A stretch of DNA of 64,000 nt from positions 186,001-250,000 of the forward strand of contig WFMF01000084.1 in the NCBI GenBank assembly GCA_011033025.1, written 5' to 3'. The DNA comes from Beroe forskalii. Lineage: Eukaryota > Ctenophora > Nuda > Beroida > Beroidae. Below, in pieces: positions 14,985 through 63,439 of the stretch (position 1 is the stretch's first letter; every line of letters starts with the position of its first letter). The notes beneath the pieces were generated by a model. That model was not told the DNA's origin. It saw only the letters and a program-made list of their open reading frames with translations, and ran no database searches. A program made the translations under genes and the position numbers.

Positions 14985-14999
14985 TTCATTGTCTCGGTT

Positions 15000-28304: not shown

Positions 28305-28312
28305 ATGAGAAT

Positions 28313-29661: not shown

Positions 29662-29900
29662 GTCTCCCATATAAACGGGAGCCTTCATTATCTATGACGA
29701 TGACGTCACTCAGAAAAATATGATTAAGCGCATCTAGTGCTTTAGGCAGTAAGGTTAGGGTTCTTGTTAGGGTCAGGATTTGTTAGGTTTAGGACAAGGA
29801 TTAAGGTTAGGGTTTTGGTTAGGGCAATGGTTAGGTTTATGATACAGAAAAATTGACGTTTAGATCTGTGACGTCACTCAGAGCCGTTTATATGGGAGAC
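29662..29900. mobile_element. Short TIR element with internal TTAGGG-like repeats
   Basis: GTCTCCCATATAAACGG at the left and the exact inverse at the right bound 239 bp. Inside, 29750-29840 is a degenerate run of GTTAGGG/GGTTAGG words, and TGACGTCACTCAG occurs near both ends in direct orientation. No target duplication is obvious. Confidence 0.65.
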
Positions 29901-30510: not shown

Positions 30511-30734
30511 TACAGGGGTAAGCCAAGAGCCATAGCAGCAGAAATGGAGACACTGGACCTCAATCTCATACCTAAAGCAGAGAATTAGCTGATCTTGGAT
30601 CTATCCAAGAAGTATCATTGGTCATTATGGAATTATGAACATCTTTTGAACTTTTAAGTTTATGGTGCCAGCTGTTATTTTATGTAGTTCATGCATGTTG
30701 TTTTTTCTTTTCATAAAGTGGGCTGTAAAAAATT

Positions 30735-37230: not shown

Positions 37231-37344
37231 GTCCGGATTGATTCGATCGGCAGAGTCGATTCGGTAGGCTTATTCTCGTTAAATGGCCGATTCGAGTCGA
37301 GTGGCCTGGTCAAATTAAGGTGAGTGATCACCGGGTGTAGGTGT

Positions 37345-37530
37345 TGGCCGCTCGCCGGTCCAGTGGGGTCCTGGATTGGCGGACTGCTCTCAGCCCAGGA
37401 TATCCCCGGCAGTCGGGTGGCCTGTCCACCCAGGAGTTCACACTCTTGGCCCAATAGCTTAGCCTTGTGTATAGGGAAGTATCTATGCTCTGCATGGCTG
37501 ATACTGGCCTGGTTGATTAAACCAACCTTG
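37345..37530. repeat. GC-rich interspersed repeat, second copy
   Basis: It matches 33300-33490 in the same orientation, with small deletions (GGTCCTGGATTGGCGG, CAGCCCAGGATATCCC, CCTGGTTGATTAAACC). It sits inside the CACTA-ended element. Confidence 0.6.
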
Positions 37531-38978: not shown

Positions 38979-40079
38979 ATGAAGAATATGGAAATGGGTA
39001 GGGAGCACATGGGCGATGCCCTGAAGATCGGGGCACCTATCCGGTGGGCGGACTTCGTGCTGGCCTTCACTCTCGGCGTCGTCTCCATTCTGGGTACTCT
39101 CTGGAACGGCATAGCCACGGCCTTCTTTGACCGGGAGTTCGTCAAGGGGAACAACGTACGGGACAAGAACAAGGTGTATTTCCGGGTGATCTACCTTGCC
39201 ATCTGCATCACGGATCTGATCATCTGTGTCAGTGTTTTCCCTGTGATCGATGCCCTGATAGAGGATCCCGGGTATCCCAACTTCAAGCTCCCTACCGTCT
39301 TCGGTAACATCGCGTTCTGTAACTTCTGGGGGTTGCTCTGGGAGATCCTACCCTCGTTTTCCGTGTTCCTTGTGGGTGTGCTCAGCCTTTCCCGCCTGGT
39401 CCTCCTGGTGCGACCCCGGTACCAGTTCCACCAGTATCGTCTGTACGTTGCCATGACAACCTACGGCTTCCTCATCCTCATCTCCAAGGTCTCCCTGCTC
39501 CTGACAACGGACGTGATGGACTACGAGCCCATGTTACGCTACTGCTTCATCATCTCCCACAAGGGCATGGAGTTCCGGAGTCAGGAGATCATCACGGTGG
39601 CAGTGATGATAGCCCACCTGGCACTACCCGTTATCCCAGTATTCGTGGGTTTCTTCTGCTCGCTCTTCCTGCTCCTAGGTCCCAAACAACGCGTAGCTCA
39701 CTGTAAACACGTCACTACGGCCCAGGAGAACGCAGCTACTACAGTTGTTATCATCACCGTGGTGTACATCATCTTCAACATACCCATCATAATCAACAAT
39801 CTTTTCTACCTTCACGGACTCAGGACACGGCCCAACGCCAAGTTCGTCGATTTGTACGACAATATACTGACGTTCTACTATTTGTGGCCCCTAACTTACA
39901 TTGTGAGTGTTGCTGTGAACTCCATGGCAAATCCCCTGATTTACTACTTCAGAATGCAGATATTTAAGACTTTTGTTGACAGGTTTTTGAGGGCCATGAA
40001 GTTAAGGTTCAGTAACAGGATACAGGACAATCATGAGCTGACGATGCGAAGCCCATCACAAGCAGTAGTTGTACTGTAA
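38979..40079 (+). CDS. Rhodopsin-class (class A) GPCR, copy 2
   Basis: This is the intronless 366-codon paralogue of the receptor at 17546, with the same seven membrane segments and motifs (LAICITD, LSRLVLLVRPRY in place of DRY, NPLIYYF). By direct comparison there are about 37 nucleotide differences and only one changes the protein: Pro to Arg in the C-terminal tail (TMRSPSQ). About 27 of the 37 fall in the last 490 bp. Such a pattern means both copies are under protein-level constraint. The 5' flank differs from copy 1: about 105 bp just before the ATG are missing, and a segment of about 60 bp near 38766-38830 is different. The polyadenylation signal AATAAA is conserved. No function more exact than orphan class A receptor can be given. 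Confidence 0.9.
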   Translation: MKNMEMGREHMGDALKIGAPIRWADFVLAFTLGVVSILGTLWNGIATAFFDREFVKGNNVRDKNKVYFRVIYLAICITDLIICVSVFPVIDALIEDPGYPNFKLPTVFGNIAFCNFWGLLWEILPSFSVFLVGVLSLSRLVLLVRPRYQFHQYRLYVAMTTYGFLILISKVSLLLTTDVMDYEPMLRYCFIISHKGMEFRSQEIITVAVMIAHLALPVIPVFVGFFCSLFLLLGPKQRVAHCKHVTTAQENAATTVVIITVVYIIFNIPIIINNLFYLHGLRTRPNAKFVDLYDNILTFYYLWPLTYIVSVAVNSMANPLIYYFRMQIFKTFVDRFLRAMKLRFSNRIQDNHELTMRSPSQAVVVL

Positions 40080-40245
40080 TTTCGACATGATCAAAGCGAA
40101 TTTATTTCACTTTAATAAACCATGAATTTTCAGAGAACAAAAATGTTTAATGTTATTTTTGAGAAATCAATTAAACACGGTCAATCAATCTATTTATTTA
40201 TTTCGTGTTACGTAAGTCTATCTGTAATATCATTTGTTTTTGTTG

Positions 40246-40251
40246 AATAAA
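40246..40251 (+). promoter_or_regulatory. Likely polyadenylation signal of GPCR copy 2
   Basis: AATAAA about 170 bp after the stop codon, matching the signal after copy 1. Confidence 0.45.
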
Positions 40252-40847
40252 ATTCATTTCCTTCGCTTGGACACCAAGCATTTCGGAATCATAAAGGATT
40301 CACGTCACAATGAATATTAATTATTTCTCAAATTAAATGCTGATTATTATTTATTGTTTACAGTTCCTAAATTATGTGTACACTCGTTCTGAACACGTAA
40401 TATTAGACAAATAAACTCAACGCATTTGAATACTACCGCCTTGCTCACGTGACCCAAAACTTTGAACTTTGAACTCACATGGGGTTAGAAACTGAAGCAA
40501 CTACAGAATTGAAACCTCCAGTTCACTTAATGTGGAGCCGACACTATGTCTACTGAGTTTTTCAGTTGGGTTCAGTTACTACCCCAAGTCAAATGGAAGT
40601 TTTGGGTCACGTGACCAAGCCGGCAATTTCAAATGCGTGGATTGTTTTAGTATGTCTATTGAAGTGCCGGGCAGCTTACGGAAGCATCCAGCAACTAACT
40701 GTAAAGGAACTTTCCTGCATTAATTTGCTAAATTAATACAACGCATTTGATCATCCATGTAGGTACTACGTTAACTGCAGGAACTTCGTTAAATGTAGGA
40801 ACTTTGTTAATTAGAAACGTGAATGACAGGATATATTTCAGCAGGAG

Positions 40848-42438
40848 GGGGGGGGATCATCTTTTTTTTGTATTTTTTTGTATTTTTTTGTCCAACCATT
40901 TTTTGTCCAACTTTTGAAAATAGGTACACTTTTGGACAAAAATACAAAAAATACAAAAAATACAAAAAATTGTTTTCTTTGTATGGACATATATATAAGT
41001 GTGACAAAATATTGTGACATATCTTTAGGTTCGTGATTTTAAATTGAATTGTTCCAAAAACAAAGTTGACAAATTTTACAACAGATGGTGAAAACTATGC
41101 ATCTAATGGCACAACAACTTGTGAGAAATATAGTACCTAATTATATTATATTAAAATATACTCATTAAGTCATTAGAGTACAGCATAACCTGTAGAACCG
41201 TTTATAAGGACATCTTAGGAGAAACTGAACTTCACTGCAACCAGTTCTTATCAGTGAAAGGGCAAAGGAGTATAAAAATTAACTAGTGCAGTATTGCAAT
41301 TGGTAATAAGGAGCAATAAAAAAGATAATAAATTTACAACTCTTTCATTGAACTAGTTTTTGTTCCCTTAATCTAAGTTTGCTCGGAAACCTGCAGAGAA
41401 ATGGCGACCTTTTAAATTGAAAAAAAAAATTCTTAAAATAGATGGAACTATCATAACGTTATAATTTCTGTATGGCCTAATACGGATGTAATTTAAAACA
41501 ATGGAAACCCGATATTTCTCAGTCTAATAAAGAACCATCTATTAAATTGTTAATAGAAAGGCAAAACATACGGAGAACAGGGAATGTTGGAAAATGAATA
41601 TTTATATGTGTAATTATACTATCGACAGTATACACGGCATACAGTGTTATCAATCGATCATTTTCCTCGAAATACGATCAATTCGAGATTATCAGTTTGA
41701 TTTTAAAACCAGAACCGAAACCATTCTTAGCAGCAGAAAATATCCAAGTTTCAACTACATCAAATATTCGTGAACTGCAGTTAACTAGACCTTTGTTCCA
41801 CAATATTGTAGGATGATATATGCACTGAATATCCTACTCATTTAATGTTGTGGAGTACCTATAAAGACAAAAGCAGATGGGAACATAAAACATACAATGT
41901 ATTCCATTACAAGACAAATTCTAAAATCAAAAAGTATGGTGCCAGAGGGAGAGGGAGAGACAGCCAAACAAACAATAACATAGAACGGTAAAAAGAAAAC
42001 ATCGCGCAACGATATTCATCAGACCTGAACGTTGTTTTGACAAGACTCAATTTCCCGGTAAATTTAATTTGCAACTTCGGTGATTTCCTCTCTCCATGAA
42101 ACATAAAAAATCTAATAATAATCATGATCATAGAGCGGATGAAACAGTTCCGTCGTGGTCACATTATAGTCATTAGTCTGCTAATCAAAGCAATACGTGG
42201 AATGCAATCGGAGACGATCTACATTCTTAATATTGTTGATTGAGGAATGCAAAATCGTACATAGATGCCTGAATGGTAGAAGTTCTTTCTCATTTTTTTG
42301 TATTTTTTGTATTTTTTTGTATTTTTTTGTATTTTTTTGTATTTTTTTGTATTTTTTTGTCCAATGATTTTTTGTCCAACTCCAAAAAACAAGGTACACT
42401 TTGGACAATTATACAAAAAAAAGATGATCCCCCCCCCC
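40848..42438. mobile_element. TIR element with poly-G/poly-C ends (copy B only)
   Basis: The ends are eight or more G followed by ATCATCTTTTTTTTGTAT, and the exact inverse ending in a C run. AGGAG flanks both sides and occurs once in D2 copy A (TTTCAGCAGGAGACAGC), which shows the empty site. Both ends carry TTTTTTTGTA microsatellite and two GTCCAA words. The interior is AT-rich with no transposase frame. The superfamily is not assigned. The length is about 1.59 kb. Confidence 0.8.
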
Positions 42439-43919
42439 AGGAGACAGCTGCCAGCTATTTGTTCATTATAGATCCCCGACCTTCCCACCTTGTCCAGTAG
42501 ATATCCCAGCTCACTTGACGCAGCGCTCCGTCAATCCGGGTTGACACACTTGACAATTTCCACGGAACAGCTTCCTTGTTAGATTATTTCAAGAATTATT
42601 AACTGTACACAATGTTAGATGTTCCCCTTTCATTATATTACATACATGAGCGACAACGGTCGCCTGACAAGCAGATTGCTTTGATTTAATATAATGGATT
42701 GACATGAGGCAGAGAGAGATTGTGAGTGTTTCCTTTTATAATACAGAAGACACTGGATGCAAACTGACATATGGAACTGTCACAACACGCGCGATCTATT
42801 TAGCTATGGGCGGATGCAAGAGAATTGCTTGGGTTAATGCATTTTATATTATTAGTCTTCATAAAAACATCAAACCGTCTAATTGTAAGTCATAAACGAC
42901 ATAGTTTTGCTAAATGGCCAATAAAAACTCGCTTGACGGACTTGTTAGTAGACACTTCAGATATCAAACACAGTGATCTTTATTGATTTGTCATATCATC
43001 TGCATTAGCCATAATAGGTCATATATTGAGAACAAAATTTTGTTGTCAGTTAAGATCAGTTGAAAACACAGCGTTATTCAAAAATCTAGCGTTCACGACG
43101 AAACCTCACAAACTTCTTTCTAAATTTTTGATCTAGAAGCACATTCCATAGTGCGGGTATTGCGCCATTAGCTATGCCCAGTAGCTATGCCGCCAATAAT
43201 TCAAACACTATGCAACTGACGTCAATCATCTGAAGTTAATGACGATGTCTACAAGATGGGATGTTCTGGTAATTGAATAATTTGAAGCCTTCACCGTATT
43301 GACGTACACTTGCAGATTATAGCGATCGCTGTAAGAGTTATAGCTTTATAAGTCCCCTTAACCCCACTACCACATCCTATTACGACTTTAATGATTGCCT
43401 AAGCAATGAAACATAATATGTACATTCAAGAGGTGGGGGAAAGTGATGTCATCATCATGCTCTAAAACGGTGAATTGATGACGATATATCTGTTTCTGAT
43501 GGTCGGTATACAGTTAAAACCAGGATAGTGACGGTTCCCACACATAGTGTCATGTTTCACATTCTATAAATGTGCTCCCTGTAGTAACTATCAATTCGTA
43601 ATGATGGGAGATTTGAGCGCCAAATAGCGACTAGTGAGCAGAATGTTCTACAATTCATACTTTCAAGGTTCTGTCAAGCAGTTGGTGGTGGTATTTATTC
43701 CATAACATAAATTCTGTTACACGAATTGCCATTTTGTCTTACTAGAATAAAAAGGGAACAGCTGATGGAAATGAAGAGCAAGTGAGTTCGTGTTTAGCTT
43801 TTGTAGAAATTAGGGAAAGCAGTGTTAGGAACAGATTTTCGACTTCAATCCATTGAAAAAATTCCCATGCAATAGATACACATAAGGTCACTGGTCAGAG
43901 CTCAGCTCCATGTGACATA

Positions 43920-44614
43920 CCTTATTACAGGAAATTAAGTTTACATATAATTAAGCCCTAAGGTCTCAAAAAGGGCTTAATTTCATGCACCTTAATGACA
44001 TGTATTCTTAATTTCATGAGGACCAATTTTTGAAGCAAATTTGATTATAATAAGTTCGAAAACATTGATTTTTTTCAATTATTTATAATTCAGTATTGAT
44101 TAAGCTTTGATATGGTGCCGGATGGAAAGCCACTGGTATTGCCAGACAGATCTTGGAGCTCACTCCTTGACAATGTTTCCAATGCCGTTATGATAATCAG
44201 CTATTATGTGGTGTTTTGTGGAAACATATTCCATCATTAATTTGATGTAACTGATAAGATTCTCATGATGCTGTGATAATTTATTCTATAGGTTATTTGG
44301 TCATAGTAATTTTCGTCTCTGAAAATTCCCCAATTTTTATTAATTGTGTTAAGTGGTAATTGGAGAATAATTTAAACTATCAGTGTCAAATTAAGAAATA
44401 AGGCCAAAAATTCCCAATTCCCATGTCTTAATTATTTGCATACAAGACTGAAATTTCTATCTCATGAAATTTATATCTCCACAATGATAATTTGGCTGCA
44501 TGTATTTAAGAATGCATCAAATTAGGCTTACATGTAATTAAGCCCTAGAGCCTCAAAAAGGGCTTAATTTCATGTAGGCTCATTTTTCTGAAGGCGATAT
44601 TTCCTGTAATAAGG
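43920..44614. mobile_element. TA-flanked MITE, family M1
   Basis: The TIRs are CCTTATTACAGGAAATTAAG and CGATATTTCCTGTAATAAGG, with TA on both sides. It shares the AGGGCTTAATTTCATG and CATGTAATTAAGCCC blocks with the nested copy at 27063. The single TA of the empty site is seen in D2 copy A (GTGACATATTTGAT). It has no coding potential. Confidence 0.85.
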
Positions 44615-44616
44615 TA

Positions 44617-44884
44617 CCTTAGTACACTTAAGAACGGCGTCACTTAATTAGTGCGGTTTGGGAAAAACCGCACTAATTAAGTGTACAGTAATTAAGTGCA
44701 CATGAAATTAAGTGAACAATTTCGTGAATTTTGCGTTTTTCGAATTCGTTTTTATACATATTTCGGTTCTCAATTCCATATCGATTATCGTTTTCGATCT
44801 CAAGTCATAAAAACCGCACTAATAAAGTGCGCCGATCTTAAAGTGCGCGCCAATTACGTGATGCCGTTCTTAGGTGTACTAAGG
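44617..44884. mobile_element. TA-flanked MITE, family M2, adjacent to M1 copy
   Basis: The 268-bp element has ends CCTTAGTACACTTAAGAACG and CGTTCTTAGGTGTACTAAGG, the right end with one extra G. It shares a TA with the M1 element on its left and has TA on its right. Inside is a strong hairpin, CTTAATTAGTGCGGTTT...AAACCGCACTAATTAAG. Its TIR shares only CCTTA with M1. Confidence 0.85.
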
Positions 44885-45738
44885 TATTTGATATTTCGAA
44901 GTGAGTTCTGTAGATATTACGAAAATCGCTATTTCAACGTGACTTTAACTACCAACTCCAATCTTTATACTTACAAACGTTCCTGTTTTGACCAAAATAA
45001 CCTCTATTGATATTATTAAAAAGCGGTGCCCCTGTGACTCTGTGGGGGGTCGCGATGACCGCCGAATCATCAGACAAGTTATATATTTATAGATTTAATA
45101 CTTTAATATAGGTTTAGGTAGTAAGACACCGGGAGTGAGAAAAAGGAGTGTTTTGCGAGGAAGCTCCTTCCACGCCTTTATCATTCTAAAGCGTGATTAT
45201 GAGTAAGTCTAAACCACTTAATCGCCAATTATTGTTAATGCGCAACTTCTGATCTGTAGTGACATGCGCTGAACAACACGTCATGGTACTGGAAGTCATA
45301 TACGCGTCCGGGGACAGATTCGAGTTTATTTTGGCAGCAAAGTCTTTGGCACATGTACAGTATGCCAAAAGCACAAACACCTCTAATTGAAAAAATCTAT
45401 ATTTAATCGGTTTATAATAATATCGGCGTTCAAAGGACGCGGGCAAAATGGTCATACGTTGCAGTTACTTTAATTTATAGGTATTCGGTACAGATATCAT
45501 TCATCAATTGGGTCAATTTACGTGGGGCAGTTTGTCGACAATTTTAACTGATCGAATTGATTATCGAGGGAATTTTTAACTTGGTTTGTAGATTGGAATT
45601 ACTCGGGTTTCAGAATATATACATCAAGAAATACCGTACCTTATTTAGATGTATGAAAATCAACTTAGATAATTCAAATACAGGGTGGCGGGAAATAATA
45701 TGAAATTTGACGCGAGTTTAGTGAATAATATGTGTATA

Positions 45739-45924
45739 CCTTATTGTAACAAATTTAGTAAGCAACTAATTAATCGTCAGGAAAATAAGAAAGCATCAAA
45801 TTAAGAAACTTTTTAAAGGTTGAACATTAATTAAGAAGCTTTTAAGAAATTAAGATGCAGTTTATTAAGAAACTTTTTTGCCCGGTTTCGTAATTAACTG
45901 CTTTCTTAATTTCATGTAATAAGG
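45739..45924. mobile_element. Short TA-flanked MITE, M1-like
   Basis: The 186-bp element begins CCTTATTGTAAC and ends ATGTAATAAGG, with TA on both sides. D2 copy A lacks it (GTGTATATATTCTTTG). Internal words AATTAAGAAGCTTTTAAG differ from the long M1 copies, so it is a derived or deleted relative. Confidence 0.8.
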
Positions 45925-45944
45925 TATTCTTTGCAATGACTCAC

Positions 45945-46024
45945 CAGCCAATACCCGGCAGGACAGTTGGAGATTCTGAGCACGTAGATAACGTCTCCTT
46001 CCTGGATAGCCAGCCCCTTCTCTT
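45945..46024 (-). CDS. PX-SH3 gene block B, exon 6
   Basis: Counterpart of 22633-22712 with the same splice sites and phases. One residue differs (ISNC in place of ISSC). The nearest copy of exon 7 downstream is at 11.3 kb, more than 34 kb away and beyond block A. A short MITE lies just 20 bp past its donor. Confidence 0.8.
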
Positions 46025-46402
46025 CTGCAAATGAATTGGATGATATCATCAATTAACACTTTCTGTCTGCCTCCATTGTAACCTCCATTGTAACAAAAAA
46101 GTTGGACAAAAAAACGTTAATCATTTTAATTAAACTTTCAAATCATTTCAAACTTTCAACTTCATGAATTCATATAGGCCATGTTATTTTTTAATTTCAC
46201 ATGCGCAGATTAATACAATGTCCCGACTTCCGTAGCGAAATCTTTACACCACCTACCGCGTAGTTAGGATCTTCAGACAGCTTTTAATCATATATATAAG
46301 CGTGTATAAGAGCTCAAACTCTGGAGAAATTAATTTATTACTTCTAATTCCAACCAGTGGATAATTATATGAAACCTGTTAAATAAACTTCAATCCACCC
46401 AC

Positions 46403-46502
46403 CTTTTAGATCTTCAGGCATCTCCCCAGAGAACACAGTAACGGCAGTGGAAACGAACATGTAATCTGGCTGGTCTTCTTTCAGGGGCACTGTGCCTGCG
46501 TT
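46403..46502 (-). CDS. PX-SH3 gene block B, exon 5
   Basis: Counterpart of 23085-23184. The frame and splice sites are intact. It reads VPLKEDQPDY in place of VPVKEDQPDY. Confidence 0.8.
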
Positions 46503-46634
46503 CTGGGAGGATTCAGAGGGTCACTTGAGGAGGAAATGATGAACGTTGGATGATATTTTGAGATGTTTTTTTGGAAAATAGCTAGATTAATCATGGTCAT
46601 AATTTAAAATAACCTGAAACTTGTAAGAACTCAC

Positions 46635-46751
46635 CAGAACCATTGCCGAAGGGACGTTATATTTCGAGGACATCACGTCGAGGGTCCGGTCAGTGTTCGA
46701 TAGTCTGACATCCTCCAGGGAGGGCTCCCAAAACCAGACAAACATGTCACT
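46635..46751 (-). CDS. PX-SH3 gene block B, exon 4
   Basis: Counterpart of 23388-23504. Only synonymous changes are seen in the 39 codons, with acceptor and donor conserved. Confidence 0.8.
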
Positions 46752-47359
46752 CTGAGACAGGCAGGTTTACAGACAGGTTGTCAGGGGGTGAGGGGGCCGA
46801 GTGGGGTTAGTTGTCTGGGATGAGGCCGGTGTGGCTGGGGTTTAAAGAGTTGAATATTTCATAAACAACGCACTTCTACTTCCATAAACAGCGCTGGGAT
46901 GATTCCAATTCAGTGGAAGTCTCGAATTCGACTTTCCGTCTTTCCTGCAAATCTTCTCAATGATATAAAGGGAGTATGGAGTTGGCTACGTTTGGAAGGC
47001 AGCAATCCATTAAAACCCTAAATAGTTATAAAACTCTTCAGACTATTCAGTAGTCATCCCTGGAGCAACAAATGTCTGTGATTATGCCATTCCGGACGCC
47101 GGTACTGAAAGGAGCACCTTAGGTAGAAAGCAACTGACTTAGAAGTAGGTTTTGCCAGTCCTTTTTACCTGCCCCTTTTCACCTACTTTTTGATGAGGTG
47201 CTTTCGGCTGAGAAGCAAATATAACAGTATGTACATTTGTGTGGTTTTTGAAATAGGTGAACACCAACATTTTACTCCATGAAAATTCAGATTGTACCAA
47301 AGTTTAATGAATTTTTGAAATCGCGAATTTGATTATTATAACAACAGAGCATCAATAAC

Positions 47360-47469
47360 CTGCTGAATAAAGGGAGGAATACTCAGGACTGAGTTGACGA
47401 ACGTCTCTATTTGCCGCAGATGTTTCAATGTGAAGTTTTCTGTGGAAGACCGTTCGAATATCTGGCGTC
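47360..47469 (-). CDS. PX-SH3 gene block B, exon 3
   Basis: Counterpart of 25267-25376, with Ser for Asn in LSIPPFIQQ. The intron that follows it is about 0.6 kb, against about 1.76 kb in block A, where the RT fragment is inserted. Confidence 0.8.
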
Positions 47470-47720
47470 CTGCGGAGACATATATAACGTTTAGATTTAT
47501 AAAATTGGGAGGAAAATTATTTGAAATATTATTCACGAAATATTTTCAAATAATTTTTCTATAATCTACGTTTATATAATGCACCGGTCTCTCGGCACTA
47601 ATGGGCTAATTATTAAATATACAGGAAATGTTATGTTAAAGACGTGCTTTGCGGCTAAACTTTCCGGTGAAGATTAAATTTTAGGATTTTAGAAATGAAA
47701 ATGATCGTCCTCTGGGTAAC

Positions 47721-47797
47721 CTGCTAATTTGACAAGTCCGCCATCTTTAGTTATGCTGCTGATGTAGGAGTACAGTTCGAAGACTTGATCGTACGAT
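47721..47797 (-). CDS. PX-SH3 gene block B, exon 2
   Basis: Counterpart of 25638-25714, identical in protein (SYDQVFELYSYISSITKDGG...). The phases and splice sites are the same. Confidence 0.8.
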
Positions 47798-47954
47798 CTG
47801 AAAGTGTTAAATTTTGACGCTAATCGATTACTTCAATTCGACAGCTGTACAGCCAATCATAGGTCCGAGTAACAGACAAGGAACGTCTAAGGAGTTGCAA
47901 TGTCTAAGGAGTTACATACTGCATAGTGCTTCCATGTTAACAAGAGTTGTAATG

Positions 47955-48250
47955 CCCGATGGGGCACTCACGGGTAGCTTAGTTGTTAAAGGGTTGCAAA
48001 GGGGTTGCTAAACTGTTCACATGGGTTGCCAAATACGTCCGTTTGGGTTGCTAAACAGTTAAAAGGGTTGCCATGGGACTGCTAAACTCTTAAGAGGCTT
48101 TTTAAACTTTTTAAAAAGGTTGTGCAGAGGTTAAGACAGCGTTTTTTTCAATCGAGAAGTAGGTGGTTCGATTCCCAGCCATGCCTATCGTTCTCAGGGT
48201 GATAAATCTCACCAAAGCAGCCAAGCGTACAGGAAACTGTACGGGAGACG
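47955..48250. repeat. tRNA-derived SINE-like sequence (copy B) with GGGTTGCTAAAC repeats
   Basis: This has the same A-box and B-box words as at 25855-26065 (GGTAGCTTAGTTGTTAAAGG, GTGGTTCGATTCCC). Three or four extra GGGTTGCTAAAC-type units are inserted between them and are absent from copy A. Confidence 0.4.
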
Positions 48251-48511
48251 GGAGTTTTAAATGAGGGGCTGCCCATTGCAGCGAAGTCTCGGGCGAATTA
48301 AGTATGGATTAGACTTCCTTAGCCGTAACTGGCTTGATATAACTCGAATCCTTCGATTCCTGTCAAAATTGAAAAGGATTGATACTGTTACCAGTGGTTG
48401 CTTAGCGGTTAATAACGCGTTTTGCAAGGGTTTGTTTACTAGAAATGATTGCATGTTAACACGAGAAAGGGGCTGCTAAATGCAGTCACAGGCAGAAATG
48501 GGGTTTCTAAC

Positions 48512-48669
48512 CTGTAAACACGCCGAGTGCTTCCATCACTCCACGTTACGTCTATCTGATAAGCAAAGTACTTCTTGGGCTTGTGCAACCTTTTCAAGTT
48601 CCCTAACAAATCGAGTTCAAGAATGTGTCCGTAGGTACGAGTTGGTACTTTACCAGACCACTTGGGCAT
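48512..48669 (-). CDS. PX-SH3 protein, block B, first coding exon
   Basis: Counterpart of 26331-26488, encoding the same 52 residues and leaving at phase 2 at TTTACAG/GTTAGA. The upstream flank matches copy A once the hAT-like insertion there is removed. Block B thus keeps its own start codon, all five internal junctions and 5' flank, with only three amino-acid changes over six exons. No exon 7 of its own lies between block B and the left edge of its duplication unit. It must therefore splice over block A to reach exon 7, end within its own intron 6 as a truncated protein, or be read in series with block A. Confidence 0.8.
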
Positions 48670-49964
48670 ATCTAATGGAAATGTTACGAAATTACATGAG
48701 AATGATCACCCTCTCCCATCGATTAAATGAAATTACGCTAGTTAATGAACAATACTCTAAATTTGTTACACACTTGATACTTAAATGAAAGGTTAAAAGT
48801 ATAGATTGGAAAGGTATCTTAATATGAATAAATCATTGACATAATTTTACGAGTAGGAACTGTTTTATGCTAGAATTTTCATTTGTAGATGACATGAAAA
48901 ATACGTGTATTGGAAAAGATTTATATTGATTTTTGAAGGCTTGACTTAACTTCCAAAACATTTTTCCACGCTTCGTGGAAATTTCTTCCAAAACGTTAAA
49001 TCTTTTTCACAGAAACCATTGAGGGTGACATGTGAACAGGCACAATTTGTCAGGAATCCAAATTCCCTATGAATGTTTTTAAACGGGGAATGAAGATTTC
49101 AATTAGGAACTGTCAGTTTGGGATATGCAAAGTTTACGGTTATTAAATCTTTATATTGGCTTTTACACATATGTCGCAATAGTTCGGTCATACGATTGAA
49201 GACCTCAGCAACGAAAAAGGGGGCGCTTCGAATTCAACATTTTAGCATCTACAACCACAGGATTGAAAGGCAATGTCAACAACAACCTTTGACATATTTC
49301 GAATAACAGTCAGAAGTTCTGCTTACAAACAAGTAAAAGTAGGTATTCCTTTAGGTATTCGGTTAAAGCAAACCATGCAATGGAAGCAAACCTATCAATC
49401 GAAGCAAGTCATGTGTACTCGAATCTCATGGATCAATTTCCGGGTTCTTTTCAAAGTTGACGTCAATATTCGTATTGTTACGTAACATAGTCATATTAAT
49501 AGAAAACAAGTCTTGCAAAAGGTATCAATCCTGTCGAAAAACTCATAAACAAACCCAAATCTAACGCCAAACTTGCACAGACATGATGGACTTAGATTAG
49601 TGTTGAAACTTTATGTACTAACATAATCTTTTAATATGAAAGGTGACCTAACAAGATATCAAAATGTAATATGACAAATTACATGAATTTGAGCAGAATA
49701 GAAAATGTCATAAACCGGACCCGGCCCAGGATAACATACAGCACAGTTCAAAATTGCCGCTCGAAAGCAAATAGAGTAGCGCTCGATTTTTTTTTCACTG
49801 GTAACAATATGGCATAATGCGCGGCGCGAACAATTAATATTGCGTACCGAAAAGTTATAAATTTTCATTTGAAACAACTTCTTTGCTAAAACCTTTCTAG
49901 TTTATTAACAAGTTGTTTTAAAGCACGGTTAAAACCAGGTACATCAAAACAAAGAGAACGTCCG

Positions 49965-50345
49965 GCGCGGCGCGGCGATGCGGCATTCTACGATTTGTCA
50001 AATCGTAGGGCGCGGGCGCCGGACGCCCGGACGTTATTTTACCTTCCATGTATGTAACCAGATGCTCACGGCTATAAATTTGCTAAACACGTATACACCT
50101 GTTATCGTCACGTGGCGCGCTTTCCCCTAAGCAGGGGCCGCGCCGCGCACTCCGTGCGCGTTACCAGGGTCCTGGTTAGGGCAAGGCGCGCTTCTTTAGG
50201 GAATTAGCGCGCGGCGCGTACTTGCTAAACACGTATATCCCTGTCTGCGTTGCGCGGCGCGCTTCCTCAGAACAGGAGGGTAGCGCGGCGCGCGTACGCA
50301 CACCTATGCGGGCTTAGGAAGGCGCGTACACACACCTATGCAGGC
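49965..50345. other. CpG-dense region following D2 copy B
   Basis: Rich in GCGCGC, GGCGCG and CCCTGGTTAGGG-type words. The segment CCGCGCACTCCGTGCGCG plus ACCAGGGTCCTGGTTAGGG is the inverse of one at 30140-30210. The TACACACACCTATGCGGGCT part keeps the direct orientation and is duplicated once. Confidence 0.5.
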
Positions 50346-50770
50346 TTAGGAACAAGCCGCGGAAATCAATGTTTGATAATATAGAGAATATATGAAATCT
50401 GAGTTATTATTCCATTATATTTTTGGCAATTTGATTTCCATTCAATTCAATTCAATTATACATTTTTACAGCACACACCTGAGTTCAATGGTGCGTATTA
50501 GTGTTATCTATTGTTCTTGTTAATCGTCTATGTGAAGAGTGATGGTTAAATACCATTATCCTTATGTTATATGTTATGTTAACAGTATACTCTTGTTGCT
50601 TGATATGTGGAACTTGAATTGAATAGCTGTGCCAACATATCTTGACTCAGGATTGACACGTCTTTCATCCTCTGAAGTATCAACTTGGATTATGGAAAAG
50701 TTGTCAAAATCATCAAACCTTTGTTATGTATCCAATTACCTCAGCTATCAGTTTAACATAATCACATACC
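50346..50770. other. AT-rich spacer
   Basis: Nothing recognised. It is not similar to the equivalent place after D2 copy A. Confidence 0.4.
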
Positions 50771-52325
50771 CACTTTATCCTGGGACTGAATCCTTGGATA
50801 TCCCCTTTGATCCTGGGAGAGTCTCCTTGACCCTGGGATAGCCTCCATGGACCTGGAATAGACTGACTCTTTGATCCTTGGATATCCCCTTTGATCCTTG
50901 GAGAGTCTCCTTGACCCTGGGAAACCCTCCATGTCCCTGGAATAAACTCCTTGAATCTAGGACAGACTCCTTCCCCGGATGCATTTCTTGATCCTAGGTC
51001 TGATTCCTTGTTTCTGGGATGGGATTCTTGATCCTAGAATAGTGTCCTCGATCCTGGCCTGGGAGTCTCCTTGATCTTGATATACACTCATATATCCTGG
51101 GATGCACTTCTTGATACTGGGAAAGAATCCTCTTTCTTGGGACAGACTCCTTCATCCAAGCTGCACTCCTTCATCACAAGGTACATTCCTTGATCCTGGG
51201 AATGGATCCTTGATCCTGTTAAATTTTCCTTGATCCTGAGAGAGTCTCCTCGATCCTGGGAGAGTCTCCTCGATCCTGGGAGAGTCTCCTCGATCCTGGG
51301 AGAGTCTCCTCGATCCTGGGAGAGTCTCATTGATCCTGAGAGAGTCTCCCTAATCCCAGGGAAGACTCTATGATCCTGGGATGTGCTTCTTGATCCTGGG
51401 AGAGTAACATTGATCCTAGGAAAGATTCTAGATCCTGAGAGAGTATCCTTGATCCTGAGAGAGTCTCCTTGATCCTAGGGAAGACTCTATGATCCTGAGA
51501 GAGTCTCCTTGATCCTGAGAGATTCCTTCATCTCAGGATGCAGTCCTTGTTCCTAGGACTGACTCCTTTATCCTGGAAGAGTGTCCTTGATCCTGAGGGT
51601 CTACTTGGTCCTAAGAGAGTCTCCCTGATATTGAGAGAGTCTCCCTGATCCTAGGGAAGACTCAATGATCCTCAGAGAGTCTCCTTGACCCTGGGAAACC
51701 CTCCATGTCCCTGGAATAAACTCCTTGAATCTAGGACAGACTCCTTCCCCGGATGCATTCCTTGATCCTAGGTCTGATTCCTTGTTTCTGGGATGGGATT
51801 CTTGATCCTAGAATAGTGTCCTCGATCCTGGCCTTGGAGTCTCCTTGGTCTTGGGATACACTCATATATCCTGGGATGCACTTCTTGATACTGGAAAAGA
51901 ATCCTCTTTCTTGGGACAGACTCCTTCATCCAAGCTGCACTCCTTCATCACAAGGTACATTCCTTGATCCTGGGAATGGATCCTTGATCCTTTTAAATTT
52001 TCCTTGATCCTGAGAGAGTCTCCTCAATCCTGGGAGAGTCTCCTTGATCCTGAGAGAGTCTCCCTAATCCCAGGGATTCCTTCATCTCAGGATGCAGTTC
52101 TTGTTCCTAGGACTGACTCCTTTATCCTGGAAGAGTGTCCTTGATCCTGAGAGTCTACTTGGTCCTGAGAGAGTCTCCCTGATATTGAGAGAGTCTCCCT
52201 GATCCTAGGGAAGACTCAATGATCCTCAGAGAGTCTCTTTGATCCTGAAAGAGACTCTTTAATCTCAGGATGCAGTCCTTGTTCCTAGGACTGACTCCTT
52301 TATCCTGGAAGAGTGTCCTTGAGAT
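50771..52325. repeat. TCCTTGATCCTGGGAGAG-type minisatellite, array 2
   Basis: The unit is the same as at 30735-31885, but longer. A higher-order block of about 0.8 kb occurs twice within it (starting about 50893 and 51680). A homogeneous stretch at 51232-51330 has five near-identical CTCCTCGATCCTGGGAGAGT units. Frames open across it are repeat-derived. Confidence 0.9.
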
Positions 52326-55476: not shown

Positions 55477-55543
55477 ATGGTATTTGAACGACAGAAGGAA
55501 GCTTTCTTTGGAGGACACAATAAACAGCTGGTTGCGGCGTCAG
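55477..55543 (+). CDS. SLC25A3: Mitochondrial phosphate carrier, coding exon 1
   Basis: The ATG at 55477 opens MVFERQKEAFFGGHNKQLVA and the exon ends at GCGTCAG/GTATAC, phase 1. Exon 2 continues in frame with GSQYSCEVGSAKFY. The gene encodes the inner-membrane carrier that brings phosphate with H+ into the matrix for ATP synthesis. In animals the mature protein starts with a YSC.FGS segment after a variable N-terminus, as here. The short basic/amphipathic N-terminus is not a classic long presequence. The exon is called from phase agreement, the good donor and the Met. The N-terminus is the least certain part of the model. Confidence 0.65.
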
Positions 55544-55940
55544 GTATACATTCTACTGTAGAACAATTAATTAATTATTAGACTTCTTACTTGTTATACT
55601 ACTGCTTGATGAATTGGTGGTTTGGCTTCATGATTCATCACCACTGTGAATCAGTGAACGATGACAATCGCGTCTTCTACCGCATTTAATTATTTGAGAT
55701 CCGACCCTATTCGATTAACCATGTTTTAGCAAGGATCACTCTACTTGCAGAGTTCTAAATAAAAATAGCCGGTTCAACGTCTATTTCTCGTGCGGGCATA
55801 TTATTCGGAACTATTTGCAGGAACATGATCTGAATTCAGACCAAGTAAACAATGCAACTCTCGGATATTACCCCACTATTAAACAACTGATACTTGCAGG
55901 AAGTCAGTACAGCTACTATATCAAACAACTGCTACTTCAG

Positions 55941-56068
55941 GAAGTCAGTACAGCTGCGAGGTTGGGAGCGCTAAGTTCTACGCCCTCTGTGCGTTCGGAG
56001 GCCTCCTCAGTTGTGGAATAACTCACACTGCTGTCGTGCCATTGGATCTCGTCAAGTGCCGTATTCAG
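55941..56068 (+). CDS. SLC25A3: Mitochondrial phosphate carrier, coding exon 2
   Basis: A 128-nt exon that enters at phase 1 and leaves at phase 0. It encodes SQYSCEVGSAKFYALCAFGG and then SCGITHTAVVPLDLVKCRIQ, the first transmembrane helix with the mitochondrial carrier signature PLDLVKCRIQ (Px[DE]xx[KR]). The acceptor is CTGCTACTTCAG. A 41-bp tandem copy of the acceptor region precedes it (decoy AG at 55899, which would shift the frame by two). The donor CATTCAG/GTACGAGTG is the first unit of the 28-bp array that fills the next intron. Confidence 0.93.
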
Positions 56069-59000
56069 GTACGAGTGTTATTAGTGCCGTATTCAGGTAC
56101 GAGTGTTATTAGTGCCGTATTCAGGTACGAGTGTTATTAGTGCCGTATTCAGGTACGAGTGTTATTAGTGTTGTATTCAGGTACGAGTGTTATTAGTGTC
56201 GTATTCAGGTACGAGTGTTATTAGTATCGTATTCAGGTACGAGTGTTATTAGTGCCGTATTCAGGTACGAGTGTTATTAGTGCCGTATTCAGGTACGAGT
56301 GTTATTAGTGCAGTATTCGGGTACGAGTGTTATTAGTGTCGTGTTCAGGTACGAGTGTTATTAGTGCCGTATTCAGGTACGAGTGTTATTAGTGCCGTAT
56401 TCGGCTACGAGTGTTATTAGTGCTGTATTCAGGTACGAGTGTTATTAGACGTATTAGTGTGTATTCACGAGTGTTATTAGTGTCGTATTCAGGTACGAGT
56501 GTTATTAGTGTCGTATTCAGGTACGAGTGTTATTAGTGCCGTATTCAGGTGAGTGTTATTAGTGCCGTATTCAGGTACGAGTGTTATTAGTGCAGTATTC
56601 GGGTACGAGTGTTATTAGTGTCGTGTTCAGGTTTAGTTATTAGTGCCTTATTCGGAGTGTTATTAGTGCCCGTATTCGGCTACGAGTGTTATTAGTGTTA
56701 TTATTTCTCGTGTTATTCATTGATTTAGTGCCGTGTCGTATTCAGGTGTTCTTGAGTGTTATAAACAACACGTATTCTAAAACATTGTTATTAGTGCCGT
56801 ATTCAAGTACGAGGTTTTGAGTGTTATTAGTTGGTAGAATGGTTCGTAGATCAGTCAATGAAAAGTATTATTGCCGTAGTGTTCAGGTACTGGGTTATTT
56901 AGTGCCGTATTCAGGTACGGTGTTATTAGTGCCGTATTCAGCGTGTTATGGTGGTTATTCAATTTGTTGTGCCGTATTCAGGTACGAGTGTTATTCAGGT
57001 ACGAGGTCAGTTATTAGTGAATTCGTATTCAGGTACAGTGTTATTGGTGCCGTATTCAGGTGAGTGTTATTAGTGCCGTATTCAGGTACGAGTGTTGTGG
57101 TGCTGTGTATTCGGGTACGAGTGTTATTAGTGCTGTGTTCAGGTAATGAGGTGTTATTAATCAGTATTCAGGTACGATCAGTGTATTGGGGTTAGTGCCG
57201 TATTCAGGTAGCAAGTGAATGAGTGTCGTGTTCAGTGACGAGTGTTATTAGTTCCGTGTTCAAGTACGAGTGTTCAGTATTCAGGTACGATTGGTGTTGT
57301 TATTATCCGTATTAGTGGGTGCAGTATTTGTTGGTACTGGGTAAGAGTGTTATTCGTGCCGTATTCTAGACCATTGAGAGTGTTAGGTCAGTGTTCGGGT
57401 ACCATGAGTCGAGTGCCGTATTAGGTACGAGTGTTATTGGTGTCGTATTCAGGAAAGATTAAAGTGTTATTATTGCCGTATTCGGGTACGAGTGTTATTA
57501 GTGCGGGGTTCGGCAGTGTTATTGTGCCGTATTCCAGGGGGTACAAAATAGTGTTATTAGTGTCGTATTCAGGTACAGTTTTATTCCAAAAAGTATTCAG
57601 GTAATGTTATTAGTGCCGTATTTTTACGAGGTGTTACTTGGTGCCGTATTTCAAATTTTGAGTGTTATTATGAATAAAATTCAGGGCAAATTTATAGTGT
57701 CGTTTAAGTGCAGTATTCAGGTACGAGTGTTATTAGTGCCGTATTCAGGTACGAGTGTTATTAGTGCCGTATTCAGGTACGAGTGTTATTAATTGTATCG
57801 TATTCAGGTACGAGGTTGTTGCATTATTCAGGCCGTATTTATAATCCGTATGATATCAAATAGTGCCGTATTCAGGTACGAGTGTTAGTGCCGTATTCAT
57901 ATTATGAGTGTTATTAGTGCCCGTATTCAGGTACGAGTGTTTTAGTGACCCGTATTAATGTATTGTGTAAAGTGTTATTCAGGTACGAGTGTTCGTAAAA
58001 TCGTCATTCAGTAAGTGTTATTAGTATCGTATTCAGGTACGAGTGTTAGTGCCGTATTCAGGTACGAGTTATTAGTGCCGTATTCAGGTACGAGTGTTAT
58101 TAGTGCCGTATTCAGGTACGAGTGTTATTAGTGCCGTATTCAGGTACGAGTGTTATTAGTGCCGTATTCAGGTACGAGTGTTATTAGTGCCGTATTCAGG
58201 TACGAGTGTTATTAGTGTCGTATTCAGGTACGAGTGTTATTAGTGCCGTATTCAGGTAAGAGTGTTATTAGTGTATTACGTATTCAGGTACGAGTGTTAT
58301 TAGTGCCGTATTCAGGTACGAGTGTTATTAGTGCCGTATTCAGGTACGAGGTTATTACTAGTGCCGTATTCAGGTACGAGTGTTATTAGTGCCGTATTCA
58401 GGTACGAGTGTTATTAGTGCCGTATTCAGGTACGAGTGTTATTAGTGCCGTATTCAGGTACGAGTGTTATTAGTGCCGTATTCAGGTACGAGTGTTATTA
58501 GTGCCGTATTCAGGTACGAGTGTTATTAGTGCCGTATTCAGGTACGAGTGTTATTAGTGCCGTATTCAGGTACGAGTGTTATTAGTGTCGTATTCAGGTA
58601 CGAGTGTTATTAGTGTCGTATTCAGGTACGAGTGTTATTAGTGCCGTATTCAGGTACGAGTGTTATTAGTGCCGTATTCAGGTACGAGTGTTATTAGTGC
58701 CGTATTCAGGTACGAGTGTTATTAGTGCCGTATTCAGGTACGAGTGTTATTAGTGTCGTATTCGGGTACGAGTGTTATTAGTGCCGTATTCAGGTACGAG
58801 TGTTATTAGTGCCGTATTCAGGTACGAGTGTTATTAGTGTCGTATTCAGGTACGAGTGTTATTAGTGCCGTATTCAGGTACGAGTGTTATTAGTGCCGTA
58901 TTCAGGTACGAGTGTTATTAGTGTCGTATTCAGGTACGAGTGTTATTAGTGCCGTATTCAGGTACGAGTGTTATTAGTGTCGTATTCAGGTACGAGTGTT

Positions 59001-59559
59001 ATTAGTGCCGTATTCAGGTACGAGTGTTATTAGTGTCGTATTCAGGTACGAGTGTTATTAGTGCCGTATTCAGGTACGAGTGTTATTAGTGCCGTATTCA
59101 GGTACGAGTGTTATTAGTGTCGTATTCAGGTACGAGTGTTATTAGTGTCGTATTCAGGTACGAGTGTTATTAGTGTCGTATTCAGGTACGGGTGTTATTA
59201 GTGTCGTATTCAGGTACGAGTGTTATTAGTGCCGTATTCAGGTACGAGTGTTATTAGTGCCGTATTCAGGTACGAGTGTTATTAGTGCCGTATTCAGGTA
59301 CGAGTGTTATTAGTGTCGTATTCAGGTACGAGTGTTATTAGTGCCGTATTCAGGTACGAGTGTTATTAGTGCCGTATTCAGGTACGAGTGTTATTAGTGC
59401 CGTATTCAGGTAAGAGTGTTATTAGTGCCGTATTCAGGTACGAGTGTTATTAGTGTCGTATTCAGATACGAGTGTTATTAGTGCCGTATTCAGGTACGAG
59501 TGTTATTAGTGCCGTATTCAGGTATAGTACGAGTGTTATTAGTGCCGTATTCAGGTAAA
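56057..59559 (+). repeat. 28-bp minisatellite derived from the exon 2/intron 2 junction
   Basis: The unit is GTACGAGTGTTATTAG followed by TGCCGTATTCAG. The last 12 bases equal the last four codons of exon 2 (Cys-Arg-Ile-Gln), and the first 16 equal the start of the intron. Roughly 120 units are present. The most common variant is TGTCGT for TGCCGT. Units are nearly perfect at 56057-56600 and 58020-59559 and badly scrambled between about 56640 and 58020. Each intact unit has a complete donor (CAG/GTACGAGT) and an AG that could act as a weak acceptor. Confidence 0.95.
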
Positions 59560-60085
59560 ATTAGAATTTATATTCGAATTCAGGTGCAACAATTTTATTT
59601 AGATAAGTTTCGTGTCATATAAGGCAAACAAGGATAACGCTTGATGTTACGAAAAAGGTTCTACCACCCGTGCCCTGGTAGTAACTGATTTTCAATGGTT
59701 GGTAAGATAAGCATATAGACTATAAGTTCTGCAACTTGGGATAGAGGTAGAAACAAAGACACCAAAGGAGAGGTTGAACAATCAACTCCAATAAGGGAAG
59801 GTATAGCTTATTAATATGGGAGGATAAGCGACAGAGGAAAGGAGCAATTATAATGTGGATCAAAGGATAGAAATATTGGGGAAATTTTACGGGAGGAAAG
59901 CTGCTAACGTATGACGTACTAACACATTAGTGCCCTATTCAGGTACAACGGGACCCCCTATAACGGGTGAATTGTACGGTGATGATCCGTAATGATTGAT
60001 GTTTCACTTCATTATTTGATCGAGCATTATTCTAATAGCTCTCTGCCTCCCCTAATATCCGACATTTAACAGTTCCCTCCTTCAG
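56069..60085 (+). other. Intron 2 of the phosphate carrier gene, mostly a 28-bp array
   Basis: The 4,017-bp intron begins GTACGAGTG and ends CCCTCCTTCAG. About 3.5 kb of it is the tandem array. The remaining 0.5 kb (59560-60085) is ordinary AT-rich DNA with one stray CCCTATTCAGGTAC at about 59932. The acceptor is strong and pyrimidine-rich. Confidence 0.9.
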
Positions 60086-60265
60086 GTTGACCCCGACAAG
60101 TACAAGAGCCTTGGAAATGGTTTCAAAGTGTCCGTCAAGGAGGGAGGCATGAAGGCCCTGACCCTCGGATGGGCACCTACCTTCATCGGCTACTCCATGC
60201 AGGGAGTCGGAAAATTCGGCTTCTACGAGGCTTTCAAGAACCTGTACAGTGGCTTGCTCGGCGAG
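60086..60265 (+). CDS. SLC25A3: Mitochondrial phosphate carrier, coding exon 3
   Basis: A 180-nt exon, phase 0 at both ends, 60 codons. VDPDKYKSLGNGFKV, LTLGWAPTFIGYSMQG and KFGFYEAFKNLYSGLLGE match the matrix loop and second helix of phosphate carriers very closely (GWAPTFxGYSMQG is a family hallmark). The acceptor is CCCTCCTTCAG and the donor GCGAG/GTAGGA. Confidence 0.95.
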
Positions 60266-60429: not shown

Positions 60430-60574
60430 GAGAACACATACACCTACAGAACCTCCATGTACCTGGCTGCTTCAGCTTCAGCAGAGTTCTTTGCAGATAT
60501 CTTCCTCTGTCCCATGGAGAGTGTAAAAGTCAGGATCCAGACTACCCCCGGCTGGAGCCAGACTCTCAGAGAAG
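60430..60574 (+). CDS. SLC25A3: Mitochondrial phosphate carrier, coding exon 4
   Basis: A 145-nt exon that enters at phase 0 and leaves at phase 1. It encodes ENTYTYRTSMYLAASASAEF, FADIFLCPMESVKVRIQT and TPGWSQTLRE, the third helix with the second carrier signature (PMESVKVRIQ). The acceptor is CATCTCAG and the donor GAAG/GTAGTA. The second half of the carrier (helices 4-6 and the third signature) is not found up to 64000, so the gene runs out of the window and intron 4 is at least 3.4 kb. Confidence 0.95.
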
Positions 60575-62193: not shown

Positions 62194-63297
62194 TCACGTA
62201 TTAGCGCCATTTGCTTTGATCTGCAATTTAGCATCAATTGCCATTGCGCTCCTAAGCAAGTCCTCGGCAGTCTTTTTGCCAGCCTTTTCGCGAGCAGCGG
62301 ATGGGCGAGTTGCAGAAGTGGGTGCAGTCTTAGGGGGTGCTGCAGGAGCTGTCTTAGGGAAGGAAGCTTGGGCAGGGACAGGGGGAGCAGCAGGAGTAGA
62401 TGTACGGGCTGCAGTAGCACAGGCAGTGGGAGAAGTCTTGGTGGGAGCAGGAGGGGAAGGTGCATTTTGAGCATGACTCCAAATCTCACCTTTGAAGATG
62501 TAGAAGTGCTGCTCAGGGCTGGCTCTCTTCTTCGCTTTCATGAGGTCCACAAGTTTCTTCCGTTCTTCTCTCTCCTCACGAGTCAGGTCTGGTGCTACAA
62601 AGACCCTTCGTGTAGTTGGGATTTCTCGTAATATTTTCCCACATTTACGAAGACGGACAGCAGCATCACTGTTCGTTAGGCACACTTTGATGGGGCGGGG
62701 CTTGTCAGTAGTCTTCTTCCCCAACCTCTCGCAAAAGCCAATGTGAGGCTTTTCTCCAACTCTGCTGAACACCTCACTCACCGTCTTCTCTGTCTCAATG
62801 CTGGGATCTTCTGTAACGCCATAGAGAATGATGTTCTTGCTCCTGTCCTCCGTTTTCACCACATTCTTGACAACACCAGCAATGTCCTTGGTGGAAATAG
62901 TCGGAACTTGGGTACTGAAACTGGAGGCAACAACATCACTGTAACTTTTCAGCTCTGATTTCAGCGTTGTTTGGAGTTTTCCGACAGTCTCACTCTGACT
63001 TTCACGAAACTGATTCATTTGGTTCTTAAGCTCATCATTCTGCAGTCTAATAACCTCCTCTTTCAGCTGATCAATCTTTCCCGTTGACACTCTCAGGACA
63101 TCATAGCATAATTCAAGTTGCTTCATAGCCTCCACAAACCACATTGAGACACCTTCTTTCTTATAATTAGCACCTGCAAACACATCAAGAGGAATTTGAT
63201 TGACATCAGAACATTTCGTTTGGAGACAAAACTCGTGTAACATGGTAGAAACATCAAACAGTACATTCTGAGCACTTTCCAATGAATACTGATCCAT
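62194..63297 (-). CDS. LINE ORF1-type protein (L1-like), no partner RT
   Basis: An open frame of 367 codons. Residues 1-75 are unassigned. Residues about 75-120 look like a coiled coil (IDQLKEEVIRLQNDELKNQM). Residues about 145-270 match the RNA-binding domain of non-LTR retrotransposon ORF1 proteins: KNIILYGVTEDPS, CERLGKKTTDKPRPIKVCL, AAVRLRKCGKILRE, VFVAPDLTREEREER and FYIFKGEIW. The tail of about 90 residues is Ala/Pro/Thr-rich and ends KKTAEDLLRSAMAIDAKLQI. Such proteins bind RNA in the retrotransposition particle. No reverse transcriptase or poly-A tail follows within the 1.6 kb downstream (62190 to 60575), so this is a solitary or truncated copy, or a captured gene. It lies antisense in the presumed intron 4 of the phosphate carrier gene. 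The frame is fully intact. Confidence 0.75.
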   Translation of the reverse strand: MDQYSLESAQNVLFDVSTMLHEFCLQTKCSDVNQIPLDVFAGANYKKEGVSMWFVEAMKQLELCYDVLRVSTGKIDQLKEEVIRLQNDELKNQMNQFRESQSETVGKLQTTLKSELKSYSDVVASSFSTQVPTISTKDIAGVVKNVVKTEDRSKNIILYGVTEDPSIETEKTVSEVFSRVGEKPHIGFCERLGKKTTDKPRPIKVCLTNSDAAVRLRKCGKILREIPTTRRVFVAPDLTREEREERKKLVDLMKAKKRASPEQHFYIFKGEIWSHAQNAPSPPAPTKTSPTACATAARTSTPAAPPVPAQASFPKTAPAAPPKTAPTSATRPSAAREKAGKKTAEDLLRSAMAIDAKLQIKANGANT

Positions 63298-63439
63298 GGT
63301 GACCGGAGATATAATTGTACAATCTTATACACGGTAGCTGTATTCCATGTATATCATGAGCAGGTTACAAACGGTGTGTGATGCGCTTATAAGTTATTGC
63401 AGAGAGATAAAAACGCAACGAAATGCAAATTGATGACTT

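Follow-up and report, generated by a model that had tools for sequence, protein, structure and literature searches.

A 28-bp minisatellite that repeats the 5' splice site of SLC25A3 intron 2 in the ctenophore Beroe forskalii and is probably tolerated

Results

The SLC25A3 locus

The window analysed here, a stretch of 64,000 nucleotides, lies on a 558-kb contig of the 216-Mb assembly of Beroe forskalii and contains the first four exons of a gene (Table 1) whose later exons run into the adjoining continuation (L013), with a stop codon near joined coordinate 67376. The predicted product gave a PF00153 (Mito_carr) domain match with an E value of 1.3e-25, and its closest named relative among the best 120 of 7,509 matches was an SLC25A3-like protein of Bolinopsis microptera (92% identity). 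Judged from this domain and a full-length match, the gene is a complete SLC25A3, the mitochondrial phosphate carrier, and is presumably essential for the animal. The peptide encoded by exons 2-7 was 100% identical to database protein P0001 over the full query, and when exon 1 was added all 334 residues of the predicted protein agreed with P0001. With 334 residues encoded in 1,194 nt, the P0001 contig has no room for introns and would therefore be a spliced, transcript-derived contig; the 19 remaining members of alignment A1 have a different N-terminus, and P0001 thus probably comes from the same species. Since P0001 is the product expected when position 56068 is joined to 60086, this junction yields a real product.

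Table 1. Features of the SLC25A3 region in window coordinates; intact donors are exact copies of CAGGTACGAGT
Feature	Position	Strand	Remarks
SLC25A3 exon 1	55477..55543	+	MVFERQKEAFFGGHNKQLVAASG; donor CAG/GTATAC; identical to N-terminus of P0001
41-bp tandem duplication over intron 1 acceptor and exon 2 start	55877..55955	+	TRF
SLC25A3 exon 2	55941..56068	+	128 nt; final residues CRIQ at 56068
5' splice site, first donor	56069..56070	+	CAG/GTACGAGT; joined to 60086, product is P0001
28-bp minisatellite	56055..59559	+	unit TGCCGTATTCAG (exon) plus GTACGAGTGTTATTAG (intron); TRF and unit parse
5' zone of array	56057..56447	+	14 units; 96% identity; nearly substitutions only, no insertions; 12 intact donors
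Middle zone of array	56448..58049	+	57 units; 78% identity; 2 perfect; indel-rich; 12 intact donors
3' zone of array	58050..59559	+	53 units and a partial one; 98% identity; 33 perfect; 46 intact donors
Lone diverged unit remnant	59926..59946	+	20/21 identical; about 370 bp beyond the array
SLC25A3 exon 3	60086..60265	+	180 nt, in-frame length; acceptor TTCCCTCCTTCAG
SLC25A3 exon 4	60430..60574	+	later exons past the window, in L013 (continuation)

A whole-genome protein search with exons 2-4 as the query, in which scores were obtained for the best candidates only, gave four matches, three of which were the exons at this locus and the fourth a weak match to another carrier. A single SLC25A3 copy was found, and no version lacking the array was among the candidates that were scored. 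When the window and the 10-kb continuation were searched with exon 2 by tblastn, no convincing second copy was detected, the next best match (E 0.63) being an 8-residue match within the array described below.

Several other features of the neighbourhood were recorded. Intron 5 (2,631 bp; L013:244-2889, joined 64244-66889) is flanked by a 15-bp direct repeat, CAAATACGTGGTACC. P0001 demands its removal; 0 of 16 registers in the repeat give GT-AG (GT-AC or GT-TG at best), and two search patterns for a micro-exon of 9 or 12 nt bounded by AG and GT yielded no candidate. It is either a non-canonical intron or a target-site-duplication insertion missing from the allele of the transcript. Within it lies a long inverted repeat (L013:1005-2707; arms of about 370 and 356 bp, 98-99% identity) with open frames that we take to resemble a GIY-YIG/Penelope-like element, and a piece of about 290 bp near it (L013, about 413-703) accounts for most of 49 genome matches. 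Upstream of SLC25A3 there is a large imperfect direct duplication (14982-31526 and 33491-52322, with blocks 84-98% identical), and window positions 6-2729 recur at 9179-11896 (91%); these are either segmental duplications or uncollapsed haplotype. Two mutually related, degenerate 20-bp minisatellites (TCCTTGATCCTGGGAGAGTC) occupy 31028-31479 and 51187-52322. On the reverse strand, an open frame of 376 aa at 62194-63324, which had no Pfam match at E 0.001, resembles a retrotransposon ORF1.

Anatomy of the array

Intron 2 is 4,017 nt long by arithmetic from the exon coordinates, and the array occupies 87% of it. TRF called the array at 56055-59557 with a period of 28, 124.6 copies and a score of 3717; parsing into units gave 125, the last one partial and the first starting at 56057 within exon 2. 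Each unit consists of the final 12 bases of exon 2, which code for CRIQ, followed by the first 16 bases of intron 2. The exon joins and the unit parse thus agree with the first-pass annotation, made from the letters alone, in the identity of the gene, the start of the array inside exon 2 and the composition of the unit. Its figure of about 120 donors holds for the units but is too high for intact donors: within 56055-59560 the exact donor CAGGTACGAGT occurs 70 times with the real donor included (for the split among zones, see Table 1), CAG/GT 91 times and TTATTAG 89 times. Forty-two of the 124 full units are equal to the consensus. The exact donors are identical over 11 nt and spaced mostly at 28 nt, and all eight units immediately after the real donor carry the exact sequence.

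With a 21-base piece of the unit and up to two mismatches allowed, a search across 216 Mb gave 76 matches, 75 of them within this array; the remaining one was a stray with two mismatches, located on a different contig. The same search with the reversed pattern as a control found 0. The array is no chance match. Its final unit passes into GTAAAATTAG, and the ancestral start of the intron therefore cannot be read with certainty. We considered a transposable element as the source of the intron tail beyond the array and rejected it, as a genome search with 59600-60085, which omits very common words, found only the query itself. Predicted folding of four array units gave -32.4 relative to -23.15 ± 2.79 for shuffled sequences (z -3.3, 0 of 200 shuffles as good), and the quasi-palindromic character of the unit perhaps bears on the instability of the array.

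The 41-bp duplication at the other end of exon 2 provides two acceptors, an upstream CAG at 55897-55899 and the CAG at 55938-55940 that gives the P0001 product; use of the upstream copy would break the frame and yield a truncated product of 62 residues. Taken with the donor array, this means that both borders of exon 2 carry junction duplications.

Minisatellites of this size are common in the genome. A sample of 200 kb from outside the window, non-random in that it was taken at a fixed offset from every fiftieth long-enough contig together with two chosen regions, contained 16 arrays with a unit of 8-100 bp that were 150 bp or longer, and 3 that reached 1 kb or more, which extrapolates to the low thousands of kb-scale arrays with the wide error expected from three. 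The SLC25A3 array was the longest of the sample, though the array at L025 is truncated where that locus ends. If about 200,000 splice junctions are assumed, a 28-bp seed would cover one in about 2-3% of cases, so that dozens of junction-seeded arrays would be expected before selection.

Products of the first and later donors

If the second donor were joined to 60086, 28 nt would be added and exon 3 would be read out of frame, ending the protein after 75 residues; with the third donor, the out-of-frame reading of exon 3 would end it after 105. For the next 11 donors, which were computed as far as +452 nt, the stop comes after 88 residues, and any donor beyond +452 nt contains the same array stop and so would truncate too. 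All 13 later donors computed therefore truncate the protein. The first-pass annotation had placed the stop in the third added unit, which is correct from the third later donor on; with the first two later donors translation ends in exon 3 instead. The frame would stay open if one, two or three 12-nt mini-exons were included (338, 342 and 346 aa). Skipping of exon 3 would be in frame (274 aa) and skipping of exon 2 out of frame.

Products of this kind were sought among 240 homologues, made up of the best 120 of 7,509 matches to the normal protein and the best 120 of 295 matches to the 88-aa aberrant product, a query comprising exons 1 and 2 and the array read-through up to its stop. Neither an array read-through isoform nor one with the extra CRIQ-coding insertions proposed earlier was found among these 240 proteins, and six array-coded peptide words, CCIQ and CRIQCRIQ were absent from them. 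This is a weak negative for leaked isoforms, because decayed transcripts rarely enter such a database.

The same proteins bear on the age of the intron. The motif at the end of exon 2 was present in 236 of those retrieved, and a filter set 69 aside as not spliced-looking; from the 69 we dropped seven vertebrate proteins with a second or rearranged exon region (P0018-P0021, P0025, P0027 and P0121) as well as P0195 and P0224, both of which start VDP. All 60 remaining read-through ORFs continue with V, as GT would, at CR(I/L/M)Q/V. One of them, P0124, is an 84-aa ORF from a 4.46-Mb ENA contig, probably from a ctenophore, with a ctenophore-like exon 2; it reads through the exon 2/intron 2 junction into VWFSFERVYSV..., and there is no array in these 21 codons. 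No array was seen in any of the 60, many of whose tails are short and little informative. Since the 60 ORFs share the junction position and lack the array, the intron predates it. Intron gain by AGGT tandem duplication (the Rogers model) was rejected on the same ground, the intron position being shared by array-free ORFs. Several fish proteins carried the SLC25A3 exon twice, in keeping with vertebrate SLC25A3 having exons 3A and 3B that are mutually exclusive.

Donor sequence and predicted accessibility

Over the two clean zones, 10 substitutions or deletions fell on the 11 donor positions and 28 on the other 17; 19 of these 28 were at unit position 3 (18 C-to-T and 1 C-to-A); when position 3 is left out, there were 10 changes over the 11 donor positions relative to 9 over 16 others. 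The corresponding numbers for the middle zone were 124 over 11 and 150 over 17. We rejected selection on the donors, as these counts show neither a sign of conservation nor clear disarming. Two 3'-zone units, at 58244 and 59398, read GTAAGAG, for which the U1 match is better (-11.0 kcal/mol) than for the real donor (-7.1 kcal/mol). In local folding, the predicted probability of being unpaired over 9 nt was 0.0002 for the first donor, 0.0000 for that of unit 2 and 0.0004 for that of a 3'-zone unit; control values were 0.0000 for the exon 3 donor and 0.0167 for the exon 4 donor, and the 32 other CAGGT sites of the window had a median of 0.0078, with 25% under 0.001. Accessibility was therefore discarded as the cause of first-donor choice, all tested array donors being predicted to be paired, the first no less than the others. 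By a crude measure, the pyrimidine fraction of the unit acceptor TTATTAG was 0.47, relative to 0.59-0.76 at five real SLC25A3 acceptors.

Soundness of the array

The middle zone is either an older part of the array or poorly assembled. It is possible, if somewhat unlikely, that the array is real and that its length, mainly that of the degenerate middle zone, is a product of badly corrected reads. Identity changes abruptly, 98% versus 78%, at 58050, and indels make up 51% of the edits in the middle zone (191/373), a share 2.4 to 3 times the 16-21% of the three other arrays whose identity is comparable (0.79-0.81; window 51187, window 31028 and L032). Array edges usually decay first, and clean ends around a degenerate middle form the opposite pattern. 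Neighbouring middle-zone units also shared no extra edits (17 versus 18.4 expected); of the control arrays, one had an excess of such sharing (31 versus 22.7) and the other none. Other observations count against read error: the transition/transversion counts of 79/103 are close to those of one control array (92/112), and high indel shares also occur in two arrays of the sample that are cleaner (51% at L025 and 72% at L024). Moreover, 24 pairs of middle-zone units shared at least 3 edits, compared with 5.7 ± 2.5 under a column-shuffle null (0/300), a figure to which correlated alignment gaps may contribute in part; the control array likewise shares edits (37 pairs versus 10.2 ± 4.0). Pure read error in the middle zone is suggested by the indels but contradicted in part by the shared edits. 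Because variant units are shared and one remnant lies outside the array, we consider its existence likely to be sound, and we are unsure of its exact length.

Discussion

By its sequence, the array may be filed with two human VNTRs that carry a 5' splice site next to a junction, since its unit contains that site and the donor of the first unit yields P0001. The human ABCA7 intron 18 VNTR (PMC5954066) is built of 25-bp units and opens with the two bases that form the canonical donor of exon 18; the allele lengths named range from 315 to 9,711 bp. As there, the array studied here is a donor array lying on the real donor, within the same range of lengths; unlike there, where the units begin at GT and include no exon bases, the SLC25A3 unit repeats 12 exon bases, and it does so in a metabolic carrier gene of a ctenophore rather than in human ABCA7. 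Reports on human CBS (PMC2630376; PMC1395315) place a 31-bp VNTR at the exon 13/intron 13 junction (c.1444_1467+7), whose unit, like ours, spans the junction and begins within the exon (24 exon and 7 intron bases), and which has 16-21 units as opposed to about 124, about six times more, here. The two VNTRs thus overtake the first-pass remark that no such case was known. Alternative splicing at the CBS VNTR was reportedly described by Lievers et al. in 2001. We found no earlier report of this array, or of any ctenophore case, in the open-licence literature searched, and the SLC25A3 array extends the kind to an animal outside Bilateria and to a gene that is presumably essential, with about six times as many units as CBS. 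New introns of fission yeast (PMC3629103; PMC4974935) also have short tandem units with AGGT at the intron borders; there the duplication created the intron, whereas here the intron position is common to array-free sequences.

We consider it quite probable that the array is an ordinary minisatellite (VNTR) seeded at the junction and tolerated since the exon-proximal donor wins. A short segment over the exon 2/intron 2 boundary would have been tandemly duplicated and would have grown to about 124 units, presumably by ordinary slippage or unequal exchange. The first unit would be the exon end, hence coding would be unaffected; the spliceosome would join the first donor at 56068 to 60086, everything between being intron. 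The later donors would be tolerated decoys, leaks from which would meet a premature stop and presumably be removed by nonsense-mediated decay. Exon definition from exon 2 would be the likeliest cause of first-donor choice, and we infer that the first donor is used in array-bearing animals. The identity of P0001 with the first-donor product supports indirectly this win of the nearest donor, which the first-pass annotation had offered as one possibility.

The human precedent, by analogy, would favour tolerance: in PMC5954066, retention of one ABCA7 unit, which shifts the frame, was observed at only 2 ± 1%, independently of VNTR length. According to the same paper, cycloheximide increased the stop-bearing isoforms, and the 2% figure was thus lowered by decay, which counts against the precedent. 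Other points also count against tolerance through the first donor: the animal that gave P0001 may have had no array or a shorter one, two later units have the better U1 match, and predicted RNA structure fails to single out the first donor. An exon-proximal win is, in addition, contrary to the tendency given in PMC6002489, that the intron-proximal of two comparable donors tends to be favoured, by a means that is described there as not known. The U1 footprint cited in that paper covers 23 nt on the upstream side and 12 nt on the downstream side, 35 nt in all; as this exceeds the 28-nt spacing of the array, adjacent donors could presumably not both be occupied.

Besides the length error weighed above, which would leave the junction origin in place, the array might be confined to one allele and the transcript evidence come from an array-free allele. 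Minisatellites are usually length-polymorphic, and P0001 may come from a different individual. In the assembly, however, one gene copy was found and no version without the array was among the candidates scored, and we regard a one-allele array as rather unlikely.

That the internal donors compete measurably, their leaks decaying so that the number of units sets how much phosphate carrier is made, with in-frame exon 3 skipping perhaps contributing, appears improbable to us. The 70 exact donors, the intact state of the eight units right behind the real one, the truncation caused by all 13 later donors computed and the frame-preserving length of exon 3 speak for such a function, and longer ABCA7 arrays raise exon 19 skipping and accompany lower expression (PMC5954066). 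Against it stand the missing leaked isoform among the 240 retrieved proteins, a weak detector of decayed RNA, the lack of a conservation sign in the donors and the length-independence of ABCA7 unit retention (PMC5954066). A length-tuned rheostat of mitochondrial phosphate import, working through loss at internal donors or in-frame exon 3 skipping, is doubtful to the same degree. The decoy or recursive-splicing ladder that had been suggested from the sequence at first reading is thus without support from the isoforms, the acceptor, the length of the would-be intron or the conservation of the donors. Splicing through a ladder in which GT-16 nt-AG introns flank 12-nt CRIQ mini-exons, or in which the units are zero-length exons, can hardly be credited, for although the CAG/GT and AG geometry is present in the units and mini-exon inclusion preserves the frame, by our crude measure the TTATTAG/T acceptor has a lower pyrimidine content than any of the five real ones, CRIQCRIQ occurs in none of the 240 retrieved proteins, and a 16-nt intron is, to our knowledge, far under the animal minima.

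The tolerated, junction-seeded minisatellite that we prefer is of wider interest because the choice among comparable 5' splice sites is, according to PMC6002489, an open question, of which the array would be a good natural test: dozens of donors identical over 11 nt differ mainly in where they lie, and the one nearest the exon seems to be chosen. If a rheostat did operate, array length would set the share of transcript lost, and the array would test an exon-proximal win against the usual intron-proximal preference. Together with ABCA7 and CBS, the SLC25A3 array suggests that minisatellites with donors are recurrent among animals and could be surveyed in long-read genomes.
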